Source: a virus. From it: a stretch of DNA of 59,675 bases. Both the position numbers and the translations under genes were made by a program. Positions 27,221 through 45,444 of this stretch are shown piece after piece. The notes beneath the pieces are model-generated. The model worked only from the letters and a program-made list of their open reading frames with translations. It was not told the origin of the DNA and made no database searches. The first letter of the stretch is position 1; the number at the start of each line of letters is the position of its first letter. The stretch lies in the IMG/VR virus record IMGVR_UViG_3300010883_025977, positions 1 through 59,675 of that record. One strand, given 5' to 3'.

Positions 27221-27925
27221 CTACGCCATTGGGGTCATGGCGCCGACGCCATAAACGGGTGCATCTGTTTCTGGGCCCTCTGGATCAAAAGTTATACCGT
27301 GATTCTTTTCTAAGTCTTCTTCGAATGCGACAGCCAGCGGCTCTCCATATTTTGAAGCAAGAAACTCACGGGACTTAGTAAAGATCATCATCTCCATGTC
27401 CATGAGGCTTTGATAGTTTTGTATTAGTCTGGCAACATTGTTGGTATACGTTGGAATATCCAGTGCTGGAACTGCAGCTTCTTCCTCGGCTTCAAAAAGA
27501 AGAAATGTTAAGCTAGGAGTGAAGCTCTCTTGTGTTACAGCTTCGTACTCAGGCTCAGCAGCCTGTGTGACTGCCAGAGCCTGAGCTTCAAAGTCAGACA
27601 ATATATTATTTAGCTCGATATCAACTCCACTGTCAGAGGGCCCGGTAGCTGCATCTTCTGGAGCTTCTTCAGAAGCCCCGCTGTCTTCAGCTTCCTCGTC
27701 ACCACCTTCTTCTGCCGCAGCGTCATCTTCTCCGCCCTCCTCTTCTCCACCTTCCGCTTCTCCACCTTCTTCAGTGTCTTCAGCAGCCTCTTCGGTTTCA
27801 CCCCCTTCATCGGCAGCCTCTTCTTCCTCACCGCCGCCGAAGATATCTTCTTCTTCCTCTTCAGAGAGAAGCGATAATTCTTCAACGATTAATCTTCGAA
27901 GATAGCTTTTGGAAAGTTTATTCAT
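27221..27925 (-). CDS. leader-tagged highly acidic protein, 234 aa
   Basis: Starts NKLSKSYLRRLIVEELSLLSEEE with IVE and LSE sites. Residues 22-95 are almost only Glu, Asp, Gly and Ala (a 70-residue polyacidic stretch), followed by a helical domain (YTNNVARLIQNYQSLMDMEM). TFLLFEAEEE near 140 gives another possible processing site. Polyacidic tagged proteins could mimic DNA, act as prohead core, or be cargo. Overlaps the SOD-like gene by one base. Confidence 0.6.
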   Translation of the reverse strand: MNKLSKSYLRRLIVEELSLLSEEEEEDIFGGGEEEEAADEGGETEEAAEDTEEGGEAEGGEEEGGEDDAAAEEGGDEEAEDSGASEEAPEDAATGPSDSGVDIELNNILSDFEAQALAVTQAAEPEYEAVTQESFTPSLTFLLFEAEEEAAVPALDIPTYTNNVARLIQNYQSLMDMEMMIFTKSREFLASKYGEPLAVAFEEDLEKNHGITFDPEGPETDAPVYGVGAMTPMA

Positions 27926-30786: not shown

Positions 30787-31188
30787 CTAGAGTTTCCTCA
30801 CCTTGATGCCTGCGTCCAAAAGTATTTCTATGCTGCTAGTGTCTCTATACTCTTCATTATATATCACTTCGTCAATGCCAGAGTTTACCATTGCCTTAGC
30901 ACATTGACGGCATGGTGATAAAGTAACATACAGCTTCTTGTACTTGGGATTATTATAATCCATTTTGAGCAATGCGTTAATTTCTGCATGTATCATACCT
31001 GACTCACCAGGGACAATTGACTCAATTGAATTGGGTCCTCCAGAATAATTTCCGTTATAACCCACAGCCAAGACCTGTGTATTATCTTCGGTCACTACAA
31101 TAGCACCCACCTGATATCGGGGGTCATACGATCTTTTAGAAATAATATTTGCTGTCTGCATCCAGACATCATCCCACTTAGGTCTCAT
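30787..31188 (-). CDS. dCMP deaminase
   Basis: The zinc-dependent deaminase signature is complete: MIHAEINALL (His and catalytic Glu about residues 75-77) and LSPCRQCAKAMVNSG (two zinc Cys). It converts dCMP to dUMP, feeding thymidylate synthesis by ThyX in this window. Length 133 aa is typical. It overlaps the DHH gene by 11 bases, in one transcription unit with thymidine kinase. Confidence 0.92.
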   Translation of the reverse strand: MRPKWDDVWMQTANIISKRSYDPRYQVGAIVVTEDNTQVLAVGYNGNYSGGPNSIESIVPGESGMIHAEINALLKMDYNNPKYKKLYVTLSPCRQCAKAMVNSGIDEVIYNEEYRDTSSIEILLDAGIKVRKL

Positions 31189-32163: not shown

Positions 32164-32733
32164 CTAGTCCCCTTGATTGACATAGCTATGATGTTCCCAG
32201 CATCGCGGTTCGTACATATCTGCACCACCTATTGCGATTTCCTCGAGGCCATCTAGCTTTCTGTGTGTGTAATAAGCGTCTCTTCCTGTTATTGGGCAAA
32301 CAGCTGGACAAACTTCAATCTTGGTGGCCCATGGCATAATATCTCTGATCTCCTCAAAAACATTCCCGCTAGCGGACAACTGTAACGAAGACACAACGAC
32401 AGATTTGCCGCTCTTAAATAGGTCTATTACAGCCTTCGCTGACCCTTCTATCATAAAGGCTTCATCTACAGCTACCACGTCAATCTCTCCTAACATCTTC
32501 TCATATACATATTGTATCATATTTTCGCCTGTATTTACACCGACTGCAGAAATACACCCCCCAGAATGTGTTCTGATCTCTAATTCAGAGTATCTATCAT
32601 CCATGATGGGCTTAAAAGCCACTATCCGGCGATTCTGGTATCGATAGCGATCTATAGATGCTAGCATTTTTGTTGTTTTGGACCCAAACATGGGTCCTGT
32701 AAAAACTATTAATTCTGGGTCAGATTGTCTCAT
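32164..32733 (-). CDS. tdk: thymidine kinase (type II)
   Basis: P-loop GPMFGSKTTKML near residue 14, Walker B VVAVDEAFMI near 93, lasso/zinc segment with CPAVCPITGRDAYYT and YEPRCWEHH. It phosphorylates thymidine to dTMP, salvaging host DNA breakdown products. Length 189 aa matches the family. Lies between the DHH phosphoesterase and an epimerase. Confidence 0.92.
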   Translation of the reverse strand: MRQSDPELIVFTGPMFGSKTTKMLASIDRYRYQNRRIVAFKPIMDDRYSELEIRTHSGGCISAVGVNTGENMIQYVYEKMLGEIDVVAVDEAFMIEGSAKAVIDLFKSGKSVVVSSLQLSASGNVFEEIRDIMPWATKIEVCPAVCPITGRDAYYTHRKLDGLEEIAIGGADMYEPRCWEHHSYVNQGD

Positions 32734-32756: not shown

Positions 32757-33797
32757 TTATTCAAACACACTTCCCTCATCATCCCCCCTGTCGTCGTCAA
32801 ACTTATCGTCCCACCATGAGAGAGTCTGTTCTAGACCCTCACTAAATGAGTACTCAGGATCATAATTTAGATCCTGGCATGCGCGTGTAATGTCCGCGAG
32901 GGTATGCATTACATCGCCAGAGCGCCAGGGTGCGTTAACTACTTCGACATCTTCGAAATGATCTTTTAGCTTTTCTAATATCTCATTATTTGTTATAGAA
33001 GCACTCGATCCGATGTTATATACACACCCAGCAATATTGTTTTCTGACGTGGCTGCACATATGTTTGCTTGAACCACATCTCCTACATACACCATATCTC
33101 GGGATTGTGTACCGTCGCCATCAGATCGCAAGGGTTTATCGTTATAGATGGCATCACACCACGCTGAGACTGCTGTTGAGTATGGCGAGCCACCTAACTG
33201 TTTTGGGCCGTACACATTAAAGTATCTTAAAGAAACAATATCCAGGCCGTACAACTTTGTGAACAAAGCTGCATATTGCTCTCCTTGCAACTTTTGTAGA
33301 CCATACGGAGACTCCGGGTCTCCTATGACACTTTCTCTAGTTGGAAGCAATGCTACGTTTCCATAAATTGCTGAGGACGATGAGAACACAACTCTTTCAA
33401 CATTAGCATCTGCGCATGCCTTGAAAAGCTCAACTGTCTTAAGAACATTAATCTCAGTCGTTACTTGCGGAAACTTTACACTATATTCCACACGAGGATT
33501 TGCAGCTAAGTGAAACACAAAGTCATAACAGTTATCGTAAATACGTTGCAACACACTTTCATGCGCGAAATCTCCACAAATAATCAAAGAATTCTTCTTG
33601 TCTCCTTCTTCAAATTGATCTTCATACAAGTGGAGAGTATCAGTAGTGATGATTCTCTTGTCTATGTCTTCCAAATTCTCAAGAAGACCGTTCGACAAAT
33701 CATCAACGACATCGACACTCCAACCCATTTCGACTAACTGACATACTAAGTTGCTTCCGATAAATCCACAACCACCCGTAACTAGCGCTTTAGACAT
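32757..33797 (-). CDS. NAD-dependent nucleotide-sugar epimerase (GalE/WbpP-like)
   Basis: Extended SDR: Rossmann motif TGGCGFIGSNL at the N-terminus, VFSSSSAIYGN, active-site Tyr/Lys in SPYGLQKLQGE, and RYFNVYGPKQ. It interconverts UDP-sugars such as UDP-GlcNAc/GalNAc or Glc/Gal; the substrate cannot be read. An Asp/Glu C-terminus (DDKFDDDRGDDEG) is unusual. Phages use such enzymes for sugar modification of DNA, virion or host surface. A second SDR lies at 38484-39455. Confidence 0.82.
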   Translation of the reverse strand: MSKALVTGGCGFIGSNLVCQLVEMGWSVDVVDDLSNGLLENLEDIDKRIITTDTLHLYEDQFEEGDKKNSLIICGDFAHESVLQRIYDNCYDFVFHLAANPRVEYSVKFPQVTTEINVLKTVELFKACADANVERVVFSSSSAIYGNVALLPTRESVIGDPESPYGLQKLQGEQYAALFTKLYGLDIVSLRYFNVYGPKQLGGSPYSTAVSAWCDAIYNDKPLRSDGDGTQSRDMVYVGDVVQANICAATSENNIAGCVYNIGSSASITNNEILEKLKDHFEDVEVVNAPWRSGDVMHTLADITRACQDLNYDPEYSFSEGLEQTLSWWDDKFDDDRGDDEGSVFE

Positions 33798-33845: not shown

Positions 33846-34772
33846 CTATTCCTCAATAATGTGTGCAGAATTAAGTGTCACATGAAGATGACACTGTGTG
33901 TTACATAAATCAGGAAGTTTTAGTCTTCGAAGTATTCTACCTGTAAGATAGTATAAAAATCGAAGATCATATAAGAAAGTGTTGACAACATCAGATGATC
34001 TACAGACAACATGTACATTTAGCACATCGCTTCTAAACATCGTATGTATCAAGGAAATACAGGAGTCTTGTGTGAAGATAAACCTTCTAGAAGCTGCTGG
34101 CATTTGCAATTTATTGTACTCATTCTTGCCGGCAAGTTCATTACTAATATTTGACAATACGCCTGATAGAATATTGGCATAATATGCCTCTTCTGCTTCA
34201 TGTGCAAGAATAGTGGAATCCTGGTGCGGATTTTTGTATGAAAGGCGAAACTTGAGGGGCGAGCATTCTTTGCCAGGAGTTGATGAAACGTTCATCATGA
34301 TATCATTAACAACATCAAATTCATTGTATCCTTCAACATCGCGGAGCCACTCTGTCACACCATTAGAAATAGTGTTAGACGACGTGTCCTCGTTAATTTC
34401 AGCAACATAAACTGTAGAAAACCCTTTTATCTTTTCTGCCTCATTAGAAAATATAGTCCATAGGCGCCTCAAAGATTCCAAATCTTGAATCTCATCACCG
34501 CGCATTTGATATCTTTTTTCGATCACACGCCAGGCAGGCAATAACACAATCGTTCTATTGTTCAGATTGTTGATTGTGTTATGGAGTCTTTCACGCCATA
34601 CATCGTCATCGCCTCTTTCATAAAGAATACTATAGCAAAGCATGCTAAGCTCTGCACGATCTTGAATATTCCACTTATAGCCTGACTGGTGGTGTAGGTC
34701 ATTATACAGAGTTGTCTTCCCTGCTAAGTCTGGGCCTTCGATTGTTATCGTATCAAGTTGAAGTTTTATCAT
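33846..34772 (-). CDS. fusion: dNMP kinase-like P-loop domain + thymidylate-synthase-like domain
   Basis: Residues 1-150 resemble thymidylate kinase (TITIEGPDLAGKTTLYNDL Walker A; RTIVLLPAWRVIEKRYQMRG). Residues 200-308 follow the C-terminal half of thymidylate synthase or dCMP/dUMP hydroxymethylase: CRSSDVVNTFLYDLRFLYYL matches the RSxDV phosphate-binding and following helix, and HVTLNSAHIIEE matches the GDAHIYxNH substrate motif. The catalytic Cys of the PPCH motif is not evident (MPAASRRF). So the enzyme may bind dUMP/dTMP without methylating it. Overlaps dnaE by 20 bases. Confidence 0.6.
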   Translation of the reverse strand: MIKLQLDTITIEGPDLAGKTTLYNDLHHQSGYKWNIQDRAELSMLCYSILYERGDDDVWRERLHNTINNLNNRTIVLLPAWRVIEKRYQMRGDEIQDLESLRRLWTIFSNEAEKIKGFSTVYVAEINEDTSSNTISNGVTEWLRDVEGYNEFDVVNDIMMNVSSTPGKECSPLKFRLSYKNPHQDSTILAHEAEEAYYANILSGVLSNISNELAGKNEYNKLQMPAASRRFIFTQDSCISLIHTMFRSDVLNVHVVCRSSDVVNTFLYDLRFLYYLTGRILRRLKLPDLCNTQCHLHVTLNSAHIIEE

Positions 34773-37700
34773 ACGCTGTAACCCTCTTTATCTTATACGA
34801 ACTAGTAGACATGCCCCAGTTTGCATCATTGTGAACATTTGCAACCCAAATAGTGTATAAATTCGGTGGCTCATTAAACTTGCCCCAAACACGGACCCAC
34901 CCGCTGTTATTGTTATTGTCAATGCACTTGAATCTATAGAAAGGCTTACCGTTCTTTGTCATTTTGGTTATAATGTCTGTTACACAAAACCATCCGACGC
35001 CGCGTTCGCCGGTTGGGACAGAAAATACAGACCCAATATTCTTTTTATTGATTCTATCGACCAGTGCTTCGGGAAATACTAAGTCATTACTGACAGACGA
35101 CGTAAGATCCATGTAGTTAGATATTTTTTCTGTTCTATCCCAGTCAGGCAACTTTCTATACTCATCTCGAAGGGAATCTAGAACAGACTCAAGCCTCTCA
35201 CCATTTTTTTGAGCTCGCTTTACCTGAGTTTTTGTAAGTCCGTACATACCCTTTCGAAGAGTTTCATAGTTTGAGCCCTCAGTAAGGATAGCTAAAAGTT
35301 GACGATGATTTTTAATTTCTTCAGACTGGAGCTCTTCCAGGGAACCGAATGCCTCAACCTTACACAAAGATCTGAACGCAGTCTTATTCATTTTAGAGTG
35401 TTTCCACGTGCCCTCTTCTGTATAGAGCAGCTCAAATATACTCTTATACGGGCGCATCATCATAATTTCTTCCATCGCTGTATTTCCTACACCCTTAACT
35501 GAGCTTAGGGGCGGAACAAATGATTGAGTGTCAGCAGAGAATTCCCATTCATTTCCGGAATAATTTACGTCAGATGCAGAAAACTTATATCCATAAGACT
35601 TAATTTCTGAAATGGCTTTTTCTAGACCTTTGGGGCTGTTGTTCTCAGATTGAAGAATAGTTGCTAACCACTCCTTCTCGTAATGTGTATGGAGCCATGC
35701 AGCGTAGTAAGAATCGATTGCGTAAGCTACAGCATGTGACTTATTGAAACCATACACAGAGAAAGCCTCAATGGTCTTCCAGAGAGCTTCTGTAATTGTT
35801 TTGTCAATACCGTGGAGTTCATAGGCTCCGTCGACAAACTTTTTACGAGCTTCCTCTCGTTCACCGCCTTTTTTGCCCATAGTATCGAGCGACTTCTTTA
35901 CAAGGGTCTTGCGAAGCTTATCAGACTCACCCGGAGAGAAGCCAGCTAGCTCTACAGCTAGAGTCATAAACTGCTCTTGAAAGACTACAAAGTTAAATGT
36001 AGGCCCGAGCACAGATTCAATCACAGGGTGGTCATACTTGATCTCAGATGCATTCTTCTTAGCTTTGACATATTTCCTATGGACGTTTGCTTTAAGTGGT
36101 CCTGGTCGATATATGGCTGTTAGAGCTGCTAGCTCTGTAATGGTCGTCGGCTGTGCTGCAAGACAGAATCTCCGGGCACCGATAGCAGTAAACTGAAACA
36201 CGCCTGTAAAATGTCCTTTATGATATGCATGCTTCCAAACGTCTATGTCATCCTGATCGTTGAAGCGACAATTTAGATGTTCATCAAAAAACGACCTAAT
36301 GTCAGCAAACGTTGGACTTACATTACCCTGCTTTTTAAGAATGCGTCCGATACAATTTTCAACGTCCTTGAGCAATGTCAAACCCAGGAAATCAAACTTT
36401 AGAAATCCGTTATCTTCCAGGTTTCTGAAGTTCATGCCTTCAGTCCAGGGTGTTTGTAGATCTCCACGTACTCCAATGATTGGCATTGTTGATGCTAGTT
36501 CATCGGGAGGAGCAATAATAACGCCTCCGGCGTGACGACCGATCGATCTGTTCTCCATGAATAGAGTTTCAACATGCTTGCCTACTTCCGGATATTTTTC
36601 CATAAACTCCCGGTAGCCTTTAGAATACTTGAGGCAGTCCTCGTGCTTGAGCACAAATACAGACTTTTCCTGATTTTCATCCTTGGCATGCTTCATAACC
36701 TCCTCTTGGAGTGGACCGGTCATCTTGTTAACTTCACCGAAGTCAATACCGTAGAATTTTGCAATATCCTTGACCAGAGACTTAAGCTTCAAGGTATTGA
36801 AGTTAGAAACTGGAATAACAGCATCGTCGCCAAACAACTCTCGAGATGCGTCAATAAGTGCTTCACGATCACCTGCATCGGTATCGATATCTGGCCATGA
36901 AGTACGATGCCTCCCAAGAAAGCGCGACCAGAGGAGACCGTGAGGAAGCGGATCAATCTGCGTAATGCCTAACAAGTAGTTAACTAACGAACCTGCACCT
37001 GAGCCTCGGCCGGGGCCGAAGAGTGTTCGATTCTCAGCCAGATGAAAGATTTTATACATTGCCAAGAAGTAAGCTTCGTAACCAAGGAACTTGATATCAG
37101 ACATTTCATCCTTCATACGATCGACGTACTCAGGTTTGCCGGCCAGGTCCTCGCGGATCATAGCTTCCTTTACAAGGTCTGTGAGCATACTGAAGGCAGA
37201 CTTCTCAGGCGTGCCGAACTTGGGCAGCTTAACACTAGTATCAATCCACGTGTCTTCGCACTTTTGCCATGCAATATCGTGTGTCCGGTTAATTGAGTCA
37301 CGGACTAGTTCTTCATGCCCGTGATAGAAATCATACTGATCATGTCCTTGCTTGAATTCATCCCACATCTGGGCCGCATTCTTAGGATACAACATGCACT
37401 TGAGATCCGCCTCCTTGGGAAGCATGCTCTGATCAACCTTGCCACCCATCCAGCCCAGCTTTTTATATAGCTCACGGGCCTGCCACTTATTTGGGTCTGG
37501 GAAGTGTGAGTCTGCAGTAGAGACTAGAGGAATTCCAGTTTTGCCCGAAAGCTCTAAAAGACACCTATTAGTCAGATGCTGGGCTGGCAAATCATTGAAT
37601 TGCATTTCTAGAAAAAAGTTGTCTTGGCCTACGCAGTCAACAAATCGATCTGTCATATTTTCAAGGCGATTCATAATAGGGTTATAATCGTCAAGATTGT

Positions 37701-38415
37701 TTACTAGACCCGGATGCAAGTCATCGAATTTCAAAGTTGGAAATTGCTGGTATATCAATCCAGACGCCAGGCCGCCGACGCATGCAGTAGAGACTACAAG
37801 GCCTTCACCATGTTCTTTGAGTAGCTTGTAATCAATACGTGGGAACCGATAGAATCCGTCCTTGTATGACTTCTTAACAAGCGTGAAAAGATTGCCAAGG
37901 CCTTCCTGATTTTTAGCAATGACAACCAAGTGGTAGTAACGCTTCCATAGCGGCTTGCCAATCCTCGAGCGCTTTGTTTCCTCCTCGTCCTCAATGATGT
38001 GTCCGCCTTGCTCTACCTCTTTCTCAGCATCAATAACAATATTTTCGGTAGCTAACTTTTCCTTCTGCTTAGAAGATTTAGCATCTTTAACCGATTGACG
38101 ATGCGCATCATATTGATCACGCCAGTCTTCTAGAGACGGAACAAAGTAAAACTCAACACCGTAAAGTTGTCGATACTTTCGTCCTGCTTTTTGCATTTTA
38201 AGTGTATGCGCACGAGCATGTGCCAGACCAGAACCATTTCCATGATCAGTTAAAGTCCAGGAGTCCATTCCTTGACCTTCCGAAAGAATGAAATCGATGT
38301 GTTCCTTAGGATAACCCAGCCCATCAAATGTGCTAAAGGATGAATGTGCATGTAAACCGGTAAACCGGGTTGGGGGCTGTATCAGATCAAATTTAGATTT
38401 CAATGTTAACTCCAT
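34753..38415 (-). CDS. dnaE: DNA polymerase III alpha-type replicative polymerase
   Basis: C-family polymerase of 1220 aa: PHP domain first (TGLHAHSSFSTFDG, SWTLTDHGN, STADSHF) with metal-binding residues kept, so a PHP proofreading exonuclease is possible. Palm follows with GPGRGSGAGSLVNYLLG and catalytic PDIDTDAGD near residue 495. Then fingers and HhH region (YRPGPLKANVHRK, FNKSHAVAYAIDSYYAAWL) and a C-terminal OB-like domain. It probably replaces T4-type family B polymerase at the phage fork. The start at 38415 directly follows a T-run; ATG lacks an SD, while TTG four codons on has GGAG. Confidence 0.95.
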   Translation of the reverse strand: MELTLKSKFDLIQPPTRFTGLHAHSSFSTFDGLGYPKEHIDFILSEGQGMDSWTLTDHGNGSGLAHARAHTLKMQKAGRKYRQLYGVEFYFVPSLEDWRDQYDAHRQSVKDAKSSKQKEKLATENIVIDAEKEVEQGGHIIEDEEETKRSRIGKPLWKRYYHLVVIAKNQEGLGNLFTLVKKSYKDGFYRFPRIDYKLLKEHGEGLVVSTACVGGLASGLIYQQFPTLKFDDLHPGLVNNLDDYNPIMNRLENMTDRFVDCVGQDNFFLEMQFNDLPAQHLTNRCLLELSGKTGIPLVSTADSHFPDPNKWQARELYKKLGWMGGKVDQSMLPKEADLKCMLYPKNAAQMWDEFKQGHDQYDFYHGHEELVRDSINRTHDIAWQKCEDTWIDTSVKLPKFGTPEKSAFSMLTDLVKEAMIREDLAGKPEYVDRMKDEMSDIKFLGYEAYFLAMYKIFHLAENRTLFGPGRGSGAGSLVNYLLGITQIDPLPHGLLWSRFLGRHRTSWPDIDTDAGDREALIDASRELFGDDAVIPVSNFNTLKLKSLVKDIAKFYGIDFGEVNKMTGPLQEEVMKHAKDENQEKSVFVLKHEDCLKYSKGYREFMEKYPEVGKHVETLFMENRSIGRHAGGVIIAPPDELASTMPIIGVRGDLQTPWTEGMNFRNLEDNGFLKFDFLGLTLLKDVENCIGRILKKQGNVSPTFADIRSFFDEHLNCRFNDQDDIDVWKHAYHKGHFTGVFQFTAIGARRFCLAAQPTTITELAALTAIYRPGPLKANVHRKYVKAKKNASEIKYDHPVIESVLGPTFNFVVFQEQFMTLAVELAGFSPGESDKLRKTLVKKSLDTMGKKGGEREEARKKFVDGAYELHGIDKTITEALWKTIEAFSVYGFNKSHAVAYAIDSYYAAWLHTHYEKEWLATILQSENNSPKGLEKAISEIKSYGYKFSASDVNYSGNEWEFSADTQSFVPPLSSVKGVGNTAMEEIMMMRPYKSIFELLYTEEGTWKHSKMNKTAFRSLCKVEAFGSLEELQSEEIKNHRQLLAILTEGSNYETLRKGMYGLTKTQVKRAQKNGERLESVLDSLRDEYRKLPDWDRTEKISNYMDLTSSVSNDLVFPEALVDRINKKNIGSVFSVPTGERGVGWFCVTDIITKMTKNGKPFYRFKCIDNNNNSGWVRVWGKFNEPPNLYTIWVANVHNDANWGMSTSSYKIKRVTAYDKTST

Positions 38416-39996: not shown

Positions 39997-40968
39997 CTAA
40001 ACGTTGTTTTCGTAGTCAGCCTTAAGCTGGTTAAATTCACTCATTAATTCACGCCACATAGTAGTAAAAACCTTTTCTCCTGTGCCATGTGTTCCATTCA
40101 TCTCTTCCCGTCGGCAGGGATAAATAGTGTCTGCTTCATGATAATCAAATGTATCATTCTTTGGTTCTGGCTGATACAAATTGGTGCCGCGACTAATCCA
40201 CTTGTTCCCTTCCTTGACACGGAAGGTATTGATATAATGGAAGTCGGGCTTATCAAAGTTAAATACTTGTGTTAGCTCAGGAATCGTCCTACACGCTTCA
40301 ATTGCCATGCGTGCTGCAAGAATATTGTCAGCAGCTGGTTGAATCTGTACATCCTGACGCTGCCTAACAAATCCGATTAGATCTTTGAGATTAAGCCGCA
40401 TATAGTAAAATGACGTCATACACTTTGGAAGAATCATTCGAGAATCCATCATGGAGACAACCTTGGAGTCAGTCATGTCTGCATAAAGTTGCTTCGACAT
40501 GTTTACCAGCTCCTGATATCGCTCTAAAAATTCGGGGGAGTTTTCAACAGACTCGGGCACAACAACTGGATCATCACGTAGATCTCTATCACCAGTACAC
40601 TGAGCAGCAAATGAACCTGCTCTATGACGAATAATATGCGTTACTTCCTGAAAGGAAAGGCCAGAGAGCCTAAAGGTGAAACCAAGACATTCCATTGGTG
40701 TTGGAAGCGCACGAAATTGTAACACATCAAGCAAATTCTTGCTCTTAATGCTTTCAGGCGCTGTGTCTGGGTTAACTTCACCAGGTGTATCTGCCCAAGT
40801 TGCTTTAACATAGTGCCATGCAACATTTCGAGCTTGCTCAGTGGTGGGTGAATCTACCAATTCAACTTTAAGAGCTTCGAGGTTGTTCTGAAACGTTGTG
40901 TTTACAGGTCTTCCAAACTTCAAGTCCATCGGGAGTTCAATTGGTTCTAAATCATTGTTTTGGGGCAT
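39997..40968 (-). CDS. thyX: flavin-dependent thymidylate synthase ThyX
   Basis: VTHIIRHRAGSFAAQCTGDR carries the ThyX signature RHRx7S, but the last Ser is Cys here (AAQC). ThyX uses FAD and methylene-THF to make dTMP from dUMP. MILPKCMTSFYYMRLNLKDLIGFVRQR near residue 195 is the second conserved segment. At 323 aa it is longer than bacterial ThyX (about 230), with an extra C-terminal part from about residue 250. CAGGAG precedes ATG. Confidence 0.9.
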   Translation of the reverse strand: MPQNNDLEPIELPMDLKFGRPVNTTFQNNLEALKVELVDSPTTEQARNVAWHYVKATWADTPGEVNPDTAPESIKSKNLLDVLQFRALPTPMECLGFTFRLSGLSFQEVTHIIRHRAGSFAAQCTGDRDLRDDPVVVPESVENSPEFLERYQELVNMSKQLYADMTDSKVVSMMDSRMILPKCMTSFYYMRLNLKDLIGFVRQRQDVQIQPAADNILAARMAIEACRTIPELTQVFNFDKPDFHYINTFRVKEGNKWISRGTNLYQPEPKNDTFDYHEADTIYPCRREEMNGTHGTGEKVFTTMWRELMSEFNQLKADYENNV

Positions 40969-42535: not shown

Positions 42536-43177
42536 ATGGCAAAGACACCATATCTACGTGATAACGATGAAGAGATCGTCAACGCGCTCCTTCATGCTGT
42601 GGGTCTGGGCCTCGCTCTGGCCGGCACAGCTGCACTTGTCTCTTTATGTGTGGATAAATCTTTAGCACATTGGGTCTCGGCACTTTGCTTTAGCCTTACA
42701 CTAGTCTTTACTTACTGTATGTCGACTCTTTATCACGGCACAATGGAACCAGGTAAAAAAAGACAGTGGAGACTATGGGACCACATATCAATTTATGGTG
42801 CAATTGCAGGTGGGTGGTCACCCATGTTTTTATTATATACTGCTTCGCCGTATAACTGGTTTCTTTTTAGTCTTATGTGGACGTTGGCGATTGCTGGATC
42901 ATTCTACAAATTTAGAAATCTGGGTAGACATGAAATCATCTCGCTCATGAGTTACATCTTAATGGGGTGGATTGGATTTATACCCATAGCTTGTGGGCTG
43001 ACCATGGTTCCCGCAGGCTGCGGCATGTGGCTTCTTGTCGGAGGAGCCTTCTATACAGTCGGCTCATACTTCTATTATACAGACTTTAAGCCGTACTTTC
43101 ATTCCATCTGGCACATAATGGTAATGCTGGGAAGCTTATGCCACTATGTTGGCACATACGCGTTTCTTCTTAGCTAG
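42536..43177 (+). CDS. hemolysin III / PAQR (YqfA-like) integral membrane protein
   Basis: Seven TM segments by eye over 213 aa. The PAQR/HlyIII metal-site residues are present: STLYHGTM near residue 63, WDHISIYGA near 83, and HSIWHIMVMLGSLCHY near 184 (paired His). The family are membrane hydrolase/receptor-like proteins affecting lipids or pores. It is plus-strand, isolated, and overlaps the next minus gene by 8 bases at its end. Probably host-derived and used to remodel the host membrane; the phage benefit is unknown. Confidence 0.85.
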   Translation: MAKTPYLRDNDEEIVNALLHAVGLGLALAGTAALVSLCVDKSLAHWVSALCFSLTLVFTYCMSTLYHGTMEPGKKRQWRLWDHISIYGAIAGGWSPMFLLYTASPYNWFLFSLMWTLAIAGSFYKFRNLGRHEIISLMSYILMGWIGFIPIACGLTMVPAGCGMWLLVGGAFYTVGSYFYYTDFKPYFHSIWHIMVMLGSLCHYVGTYAFLLS

Positions 43178-43998: not shown

Positions 43999-44376
43999 TC
44001 AGTAGCCAGTTCTTAGACGGTCATGAATTATGGCATCCTTCTTAATATACGCGTCAAAAAGTTCATCTGCGTCTACGCCAGTAAGCACTAATAAAGAGAA
44101 AAAATAGTTAAAAGCATCCACCACCTCTTCTAAAAACTCGTCTCTATCAAATTCTTTTACCTCTGTTTTCTTATGAGGCTTCCAATTCTTGAGATGCTGC
44201 AATGCTTCGAACATTTCCTCGACGCCCTTAAGTGCTGTATCACGCAAAACTTGCTGTGATGCCTTGTCGGTCAAGTCAACAGGCCATTCTGGATAGATGC
44301 CCGGCTTGTCGCTGGTCATTTCTATCATGAACCGCTGTCGAAGCCTAAACATTTCTTTGAGCATATCTTTATTCAT
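43999..44376 (-). CDS. dUTPase/MazG-like all-alpha nucleotide pyrophosphatase
   Basis: Matches the dimeric dUTPase_2 family: KGVEEMFEALQHLKNWKPH (acidic ExxE helix then NWK), and FLEEVVDAFNYFFSLLVLTG (second acidic ExxD helix), ending DAYIKKDAIIHDRLRTGY. It would hydrolyse dUTP to dUMP, preventing uracil entry and giving ThyX its substrate. 125 aa is at the short end of the family. GAGG precedes ATG at 44376. Confidence 0.78.
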   Translation of the reverse strand: MNKDMLKEMFRLRQRFMIEMTSDKPGIYPEWPVDLTDKASQQVLRDTALKGVEEMFEALQHLKNWKPHKKTEVKEFDRDEFLEEVVDAFNYFFSLLVLTGVDADELFDAYIKKDAIIHDRLRTGY

Positions 44377-44637: not shown

Positions 44638-45444
44638 CTATTTTTGAACTTGCGGAACCCAATGGGTTGTCCTACCGTCTGTTGTCTTTTCTCTTATCAC
44701 GTTTAGACCATTTGGGTCCTTTCTCTGATTATAAACTGCGAACCTTCTTGTGTATTGGCCTTCTAACCCATCGAATGTCTTATATGACCGAATCGTTGCG
44801 CCGCCGCTCCGATAGCTATCACGCAAGACATTTTTAATGGTTTCATTGAGAGAATTTATCTCTATATCTGTTAAAGAAGATACTTTGCGGTGAGGCGATA
44901 TTTCGGCGCGCCAGAGAGCTTCTGCTTTTACATAATTTCCCACACCAGAAACAATGCTTTGATCCATTATAGCTTTAGCTATCGTCCACTTTTTCTTTCT
45001 GTGAATTCTTTCACAGAATTTAACATGGGAAACATCTTCTGACAGCATATCCGGCCCTAGAGATGCTAGCTTTTTTTGTAATTGATGTCTTCCGTATACA
45101 AACTTAAGCGTGCCAAAATTTCTTTGGTCTGTGTAATATATTGTGGTGCCGTCATCTAGCAATAGCGCGACTCTAGAATGTTTATGAAGCTTATTTCCCC
45201 AGTGGCCGGTCATTCCTAAGGACGAATAGAGAAAATGGCCGCCGGTCATAATCCAATACAGAAATTTTCCATGGACGCCGATACCGATGATCTTGGCAGG
45301 AATATTTTCGTTAAACTCAGACAAGCCAGGCAAGTCTTTTTTAATATACCTCCCACTCATAATCTCAACAGACAATAACACACGGCCCGAAACTGCCGCG
45401 GCTAAATCTTTGCCAAACCTTTTTACTTCAGGACCTTCAGGCAT
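44638..45444 (-). CDS. Fpg/Nei-family DNA glycosylase with a cysteine-less (zincless) finger
   Basis: Starts PEGPEVKRF, where Pro2 would be the catalytic amine and Glu the second residue; GPE matches Nei-type. Then HGKFLYWIM, SSLGMTGHW (substrate loop), and helix-two-turn-helix SIVSGVGNYVKAEALW near 175. The C-terminal finger region VYNQRKDPNGLNVIREK then GRTTHWVPQVQK keeps the finger outline and the DNA-contacting Arg but has none of the four zinc Cys, as in NEIL1 and mimivirus Nei1. It would repair oxidised bases. A hairpin covers its ribosome binding site. Confidence 0.82.
   Translation of the reverse strand: MPEGPEVKRFGKDLAAAVSGRVLLSVEIMSGRYIKKDLPGLSEFNENIPAKIIGIGVHGKFLYWIMTGGHFLYSSLGMTGHWGNKLHKHSRVALLLDDGTTIYYTDQRNFGTLKFVYGRHQLQKKLASLGPDMLSEDVSHVKFCERIHRKKKWTIAKAIMDQSIVSGVGNYVKAEALWRAEISPHRKVSSLTDIEINSLNETIKNVLRDSYRSGGATIRSYKTFDGLEGQYTRRFAVYNQRKDPNGLNVIREKTTDGRTTHWVPQVQK

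Follow-up and report, generated by a model that had tools for sequence, protein, structure and literature searches.

A phage protein joining a P-loop kinase to a compact thymidylate synthase-superfamily domain, a candidate for modifying and phosphorylating dCMP

What is the function of a phage protein in which a nucleotide kinase is joined to a relative of thymidylate synthase (TS), and on which nucleotide would it act? The question is raised by a gene on the minus strand at positions 33846-34772 of a 59,675-base virus record, the whole of which was analyzed (the window). A first-pass annotation had placed an open reading frame at these positions, and this encodes 308 amino acids and is a real gene. 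Its start ATG lies inside the final 20 nt of the gene for DNA polymerase III alpha (34753-38415, minus strand), i.e., the two genes overlap by 20 nt. A scan of IMG/VR contigs yielded 105 places encoding a relative, of which 80 loci were kept; the fusion occurs in more than 100 uncultured phage contigs, with the kept loci on contigs of up to 284 kb. The same architecture was present as one open reading frame in the 79 further loci, and in 80/80 the fusion gene came directly after the polymerase gene. A tblastn search of 50,697 records of cultured phages, in which the queries were three members of the family and the domain, gave no clear stand-alone or fused relative, the sole exception being a weak kinase match to HTVC119P. 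We found no published description of a kinase/TS-like fusion in the open literature. One full-length relative (L032; PBHZ01000014.1) lies in a contig that was assigned to a marine Euryarchaeota MAG; despite its archaeal bin, this contig is probably viral.

Downstream of the fusion gene, on the same strand, are genes for an NAD-dependent nucleotide-sugar epimerase (32757-33797; 49/80 loci), thymidine kinase (32164-32733; 66/80), dCMP deaminase (30787-31188; 65/80) and a DHH phosphoesterase (44/80). Upstream are a second epimerase, a nucleoside deoxyribosyltransferase and a ThyX-family protein and, farther away, an all-alpha NTP pyrophosphatase.

The kinase half (residues 1-147; 34332-34772, minus strand) was modeled by AlphaFold2 with a pLDDT of ~90. 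It had been described initially as carrying an N-terminal P-loop of the thymidylate kinase type, and the searches agreed. With a single sequence the Pfam evidence was weak, and the phrog_761 "thymidylate kinase" family matched the protein with an E value of 7e-7; each of the ten sequences in our initial family alignment also matched phrog_761 (best E = 5e-15). In the PDB, the family profile found YorR of the Bacillus SPbeta prophage (2axp, 3kb2; E = 1.2e-6), which is the closest solved sequence relative of this half and, unlike the fusion, has no TS-like domain. Among the 80 sequences there was no variation in the EGPDxxGKT P-loop, DR38-39 or RGD91-93, residues G13, G18, K19, D38, R39, R87 and R91-G92-D93 being present in 80/80; the Walker A (GxxxxGKT), DR and RGD-type lid motifs are thus all found. 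Because these motifs are invariant, the kinase half should be active.

The C-terminal half (residues 149-308; 33849-34328, minus strand) required a family profile, because a single sequence did not suffice: phrog_160 (thymidylate synthase) matched it with an E value of 0.02, and phmmer with the whole protein gave no match in the PDB. When hmmsearch was run against the PDB with a profile of ten relatives, T4 dCMP hydroxymethylase (dCH) came first (E = 0.008). With a profile of 69 relatives it was again the best match (E = 6e-4), and the next distinct protein was AfhB, the dCMP hydroxylase of phage HY126 (9iqu, 9iqc). Alignment of the domain profile with a phage dCH/AfhB/TS profile by hhalign gave a probability of 96.5% (E = 9.8e-10). 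AlphaFold2 yielded a pLDDT of 89.8 and a pTM of 0.86 for the full protein, and of 95.3 and 0.90 for the TS-like domain alone. A Foldseek search with the domain model placed AfhB on top (E = 8.5e-7), followed by MilA and TS, all of the matches listed being TS family. TM-scores to TS-family entries were 0.47-0.65 by query and no higher than 0.44 by target, low target scores being expected of a superfamily member that has been shortened. Judged by profiles and models, residues 149-308 are a compact domain with the TS fold, of the dCMP-hydroxymethylase/hydroxylase type, whose nearest known proteins are T4 dCH by sequence and AfhB by structure. The first-pass annotation had proposed this joining of a kinase to a TS-like domain and its checking by HMM and by structure, both of which detect the TS superfamily; the 110 residues that it had assigned to the TS-like part become about 160.

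The same annotation had stated that the Pro-Pro-Cys motif with the catalytic cysteine was missing. Conservation was counted in 80 sequences, whose TS-like domains have a median identity of 32% in pairwise comparison; one stops before Arg258, so that later positions are counted out of 79. Pro-Pro is indeed absent, but the cysteine is not lost: Cys238 (34059-34061, minus strand, as are all codons that follow) is conserved in 78/80, and in all hhalign runs yielding an alignment it was mapped onto the catalytic Cys148 of T4 dCH or the corresponding residue. In those same runs Arg258-Ser259 (33996-34001; 77/79), the Arg-Ser phosphate motif of TS and dCH, aligned with Arg168-Ser169 of T4 dCH, and Asp269 (33966-33968; 79/79) aligned with Asp179 or, in true TS, with Asn. 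Arg229-Arg230 (34083-34088; 79/80 and 78/80) were placed on Arg123-Arg124 in the better alignments, and His304 (33861-33863; 77/79) corresponds to His216. Cys238 is exactly 20 residues before Arg258-Ser259, as is Cys148 before Arg168 in T4 dCH; this spacing was found in 76/79 relatives, and together with an Arg-to-Asp spacing of 11, also that of T4 dCH, in 75/79. In E. coli TS the distance between C146 and R166 is likewise 20, and that from the arginine to the base-reading residue N177, at the Asp269 position, is 11. Loss of the catalytic cysteine was therefore rejected. The nucleophile is retained, which reverses the meaning of the earlier observation and averts a wrong sensor model.

Glu194 (34191-34193; 78/80) is a possible counterpart of Glu60 of T4 dCH. 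It lies in an E-x-x-Y context, and its distance from Glu169 equals that between Glu35 and Glu60. A firm assignment was not adopted, the alignments disagreeing on the Glu60 match and global hhalign on subsets being unstable, and Glu194 was left as a candidate. The two exceptions to Cys238 are sister sequences (L115 and L116, 65% identical), which sit on contigs of 239,550 and 211,364 bases. These have jointly lost Glu194, Cys238, Arg258, Ser259 and His304 but retain Asp269, the fold and the kinase. From this joint loss, the five residues act as one site, which suggests that Glu194 is part of it. The TS-like domain of these two proteins is a natural pseudo-enzyme for comparison.

In T4 dCH, Asp179 selects cytosine over uracil and protonates N3, and Arg123/Arg124 grip the phosphate from the other subunit (PMC6400193). 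The Asn of ThyA-type enzymes was not found at the N177 position in any of the 79 members, all of which have Asp269; this favors a cytosine nucleotide and speaks against the dUMP/dTMP sensor or regulatory thymidylate kinase proposed at first.

Parts of the domain that would face a folate cofactor are shortened. Between the first strand (Glu35 in T4 dCH, Glu169 here) and the Arg123 position there are about 28 fewer residues than in T4 dCH, the Trp82/Ser94/Tyr96 segment and the helix before Arg123 being reduced, and the loop from the two arginines to the cysteine is 16 residues shorter. The protein ends 4 residues past His304 (1-7 residues past in 75/79), and the C-terminal tail that closes on folate in ThyA-type enzymes is absent; T4 dCH is likewise without this tail (PMC6400193). 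The hydroxymethylase signature consists of an Asp three residues before the Cys plus Ser/Thr94-x-Tyr96 (PMC6400193). Among the 80 sequences no conserved S/T-x-Y was found; the -3 position is Asp/Glu in 42/80 and Gln in the window protein, and the -2 position is Asp in 60/80. By alignment, then, the folate wall is reduced, and the shortened segment and loop, together with the lack of a clear match to Ser/Thr94-x-Tyr96, make it doubtful that the domain has a site for folate.

AfhB offers a precedent. Its PDB titles describe a dCMP hydroxylase and riboflavin-dependent monooxygenase, and it was crystallized with FAD and dCMP. By analogy, this suggests that TS-superfamily members can change cofactor or work without folate. 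The Mosigvirus 5-hydroxy-dCMP synthase is reported to be a TS-superfamily enzyme (2026; PMC13390438). AfhB shares with the fusion the Cys, the Asp and a Ser-Ala-His motif (SAHVF in AfhB, NSAHII in the fusion), but is a 238-residue stand-alone protein with a full segment before the Arg-Arg motif and no kinase domain. In Mosigvirus LF82-33 a near-identical AfhB gene is one gene away from a thymidylate kinase gene and a few genes from those for DNA polymerase and arabinose-5-phosphate isomerase.

A close parallel is T4 gp42 (PDB 1b49/1b5d, 6a9b), whose Cys148, Asp179, Arg123/124, Arg168, Ser169 and His216 are all matched in the fusion. Together with the dNMP kinase gp1, it provides the same order of steps, in which dCMP is modified and then phosphorylated; T4 dNMP kinase accepts 5-hydroxymethyl-dCMP (PMC10653934). 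In T4, however, these are two proteins, whereas the fusion is one chain, and its kinase is closer to YorR and thymidylate kinase than to gp1. Among cultured phages, the two halves are neighbors in Pelagibacter phage HTVC119P, where the gene for gp15, a homologous kinase (hhalign E = 3e-18), overlaps that for gp16, a dCH-type protein with Asp186, and in Enterococcus phage nattely, where gene 50 (homologous kinase; E = 9e-11) overlaps gene 51 (dCH-type, with Asp174). In each there are two overlapping genes, and gp16 and nattely 51 are full-length, unlike the fusion domain.

These results suggest that the protein handles a cytosine nucleotide and point to a route to modified DNA bases. The fusion, its fold, the conserved site and the gene linkage are established here; ligand, chemistry, cofactor, dimer, channelling and DNA modification are inferred. 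Our main reading, to which we give a probability of roughly 45%, is that of a bifunctional nucleotide protein, in which a shortened domain of the dCMP hydroxymethylase/hydroxylase branch modifies dCMP at C5 and the kinase phosphorylates the product. A dimer of TS-like domains would bind the cytosine deoxynucleotide, Asp269 reading the base, with the phosphate held by Arg258, Ser259 and Arg229/230 of the partner subunit; Cys238 would attack C6 and so activate C5 for modification, after which the fused kinase would phosphorylate the modified product, perhaps by channelling within the chain. A single chain would then do the job of T4 gp42 plus gp1, beside the replicative polymerase gene. We favor a dCMP-modifying role because the pocket residues are kept at 32% median identity and with the T4 spacing, and modification followed by phosphorylation because full-size dCH-like enzymes adjoin homologous kinases in HTVC119P and nattely. 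It is weakened by the reduced folate segment, by the missing Ser/Thr94-x-Tyr96 signature, by the unstable Glu60 match, by the lack of the fusion in cultured phages and, to a small degree, by the negative search for a T4-type DNA glucosyltransferase described below. A more specific proposal, in which production of C5-modified dCMP relies on flavin, on some other cofactor or on a partner (e.g., the divergent ThyX described below) and supplies the adjacent polymerase, is more tentative.

A possible alternative, which we hold with some doubt, is that the cofactor site has been lost and the domain only binds dCMP, or C5-modified dCMP made by another enzyme, and presents it to the kinase or switches the kinase. 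Such a regulatory or substrate-presenting role is allowed by the reduced segment for the folate wall, the lack of a tail and the retention of nucleotide-contacting residues, and by the loss of five pocket residues in L115 and L116 with fold and kinase kept, a loss that a regulator could tolerate more easily than an essential enzyme could. However, a nucleophilic cysteine in 78/80 exceeds the needs of pure binding, and AfhB suggests that folate-free function is possible in this family. That the domain is a degenerate TS/dCH remnant, fused by accident and kept only as a structural or dimerization part of the kinase, would fit its greatly reduced length relative to the TS and dCH proteins compared, and the decay in L115/L116; we consider it very improbable, given pocket residues almost invariant in the 78 other members at ~32% identity and a single open reading frame in the 80 loci kept from the 105 contigs with a relative. 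The dUMP/dTMP sensor also seems unlikely. The thymidylate kinase-like N-terminal half and the nearby ThyX, thymidine kinase and dCMP deaminase are in its favor, but Asp rather than Asn at the base-reading position in 79/79 and retention of the nucleophile are against it. ThyX, as had been noted at the outset, is encoded in the window (39997-40968, minus strand; Thy1 E = 3e-17), and the family was present in 21/21 fusion genomes, in none of which did PF00303 detect a second, complete ThyA/dCH; the domain is therefore probably not needed for dTMP supply, which would be independent of it.

Phages evade restriction and CRISPR via cytosine replacement. The enzymes known to produce modified dCMP are related to TS, and their product has to be accepted by a second protein, a kinase. 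If the main reading is correct, a large lineage of uncultured phages would unite both activities in a single polypeptide whose TS part is strongly reduced. Modified DNA would then be predicted in more than 100 uncultured phage contigs, and the protein could serve as a compact enzyme for the synthesis of modified nucleotides and would put to the test whether TS chemistry can do without the folate wall.

The ThyX-family protein of the window is divergent (~330 residues). One copy was present in each of the 21 fusion genomes, 12 of which carry a second, canonical ThyX, and it may have a role other than making dTMP. In cultured phages a single relative was found (45% identity), encoded by Geobacillus phage GR1 in the vicinity of a glycosyltransferase and a P-loop NTPase. 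Usually within a few kb of the divergent ThyX gene is that for the all-alpha NTP pyrophosphatase (phrog_12184; 43999-44376, minus strand), which was present in 21/21 fusion genomes. T4 gp56 is a dCTPase, and the pyrophosphatase may be one also; it may simply be a dUTPase, because no trimeric dUTPase was detected in 13/21 genomes. A search for the T4-type DNA beta-glucosyltransferase family gave no match, a result of low weight since the search controls were silent too. General glycosyltransferases were found in few of the 21 genomes (GT1 in 5, GT2 in 3), so that glycosylation of DNA is not common to them all.

Three other features of the window were noted. A homologue of the formamidopyrimidine-DNA glycosylase Fpg/MutM (44638-45444, minus strand), a base-repair enzyme, is encoded near the possible base-modification cluster. 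A membrane protein related to haemolysin III (HlyIII; 42536-43177) is on the plus strand, opposite to its neighbors. Finally, at least five otherwise different proteins have in common an N-terminal motif of approximately M-x-x-[ST]-[KQ]-x-x-L-R-x-[LIM]-I (minus-strand reading frames starting at 27925, 25965, 23881, 20721 and 17637), with looser versions elsewhere, which could be a signal for virion targeting or processing.
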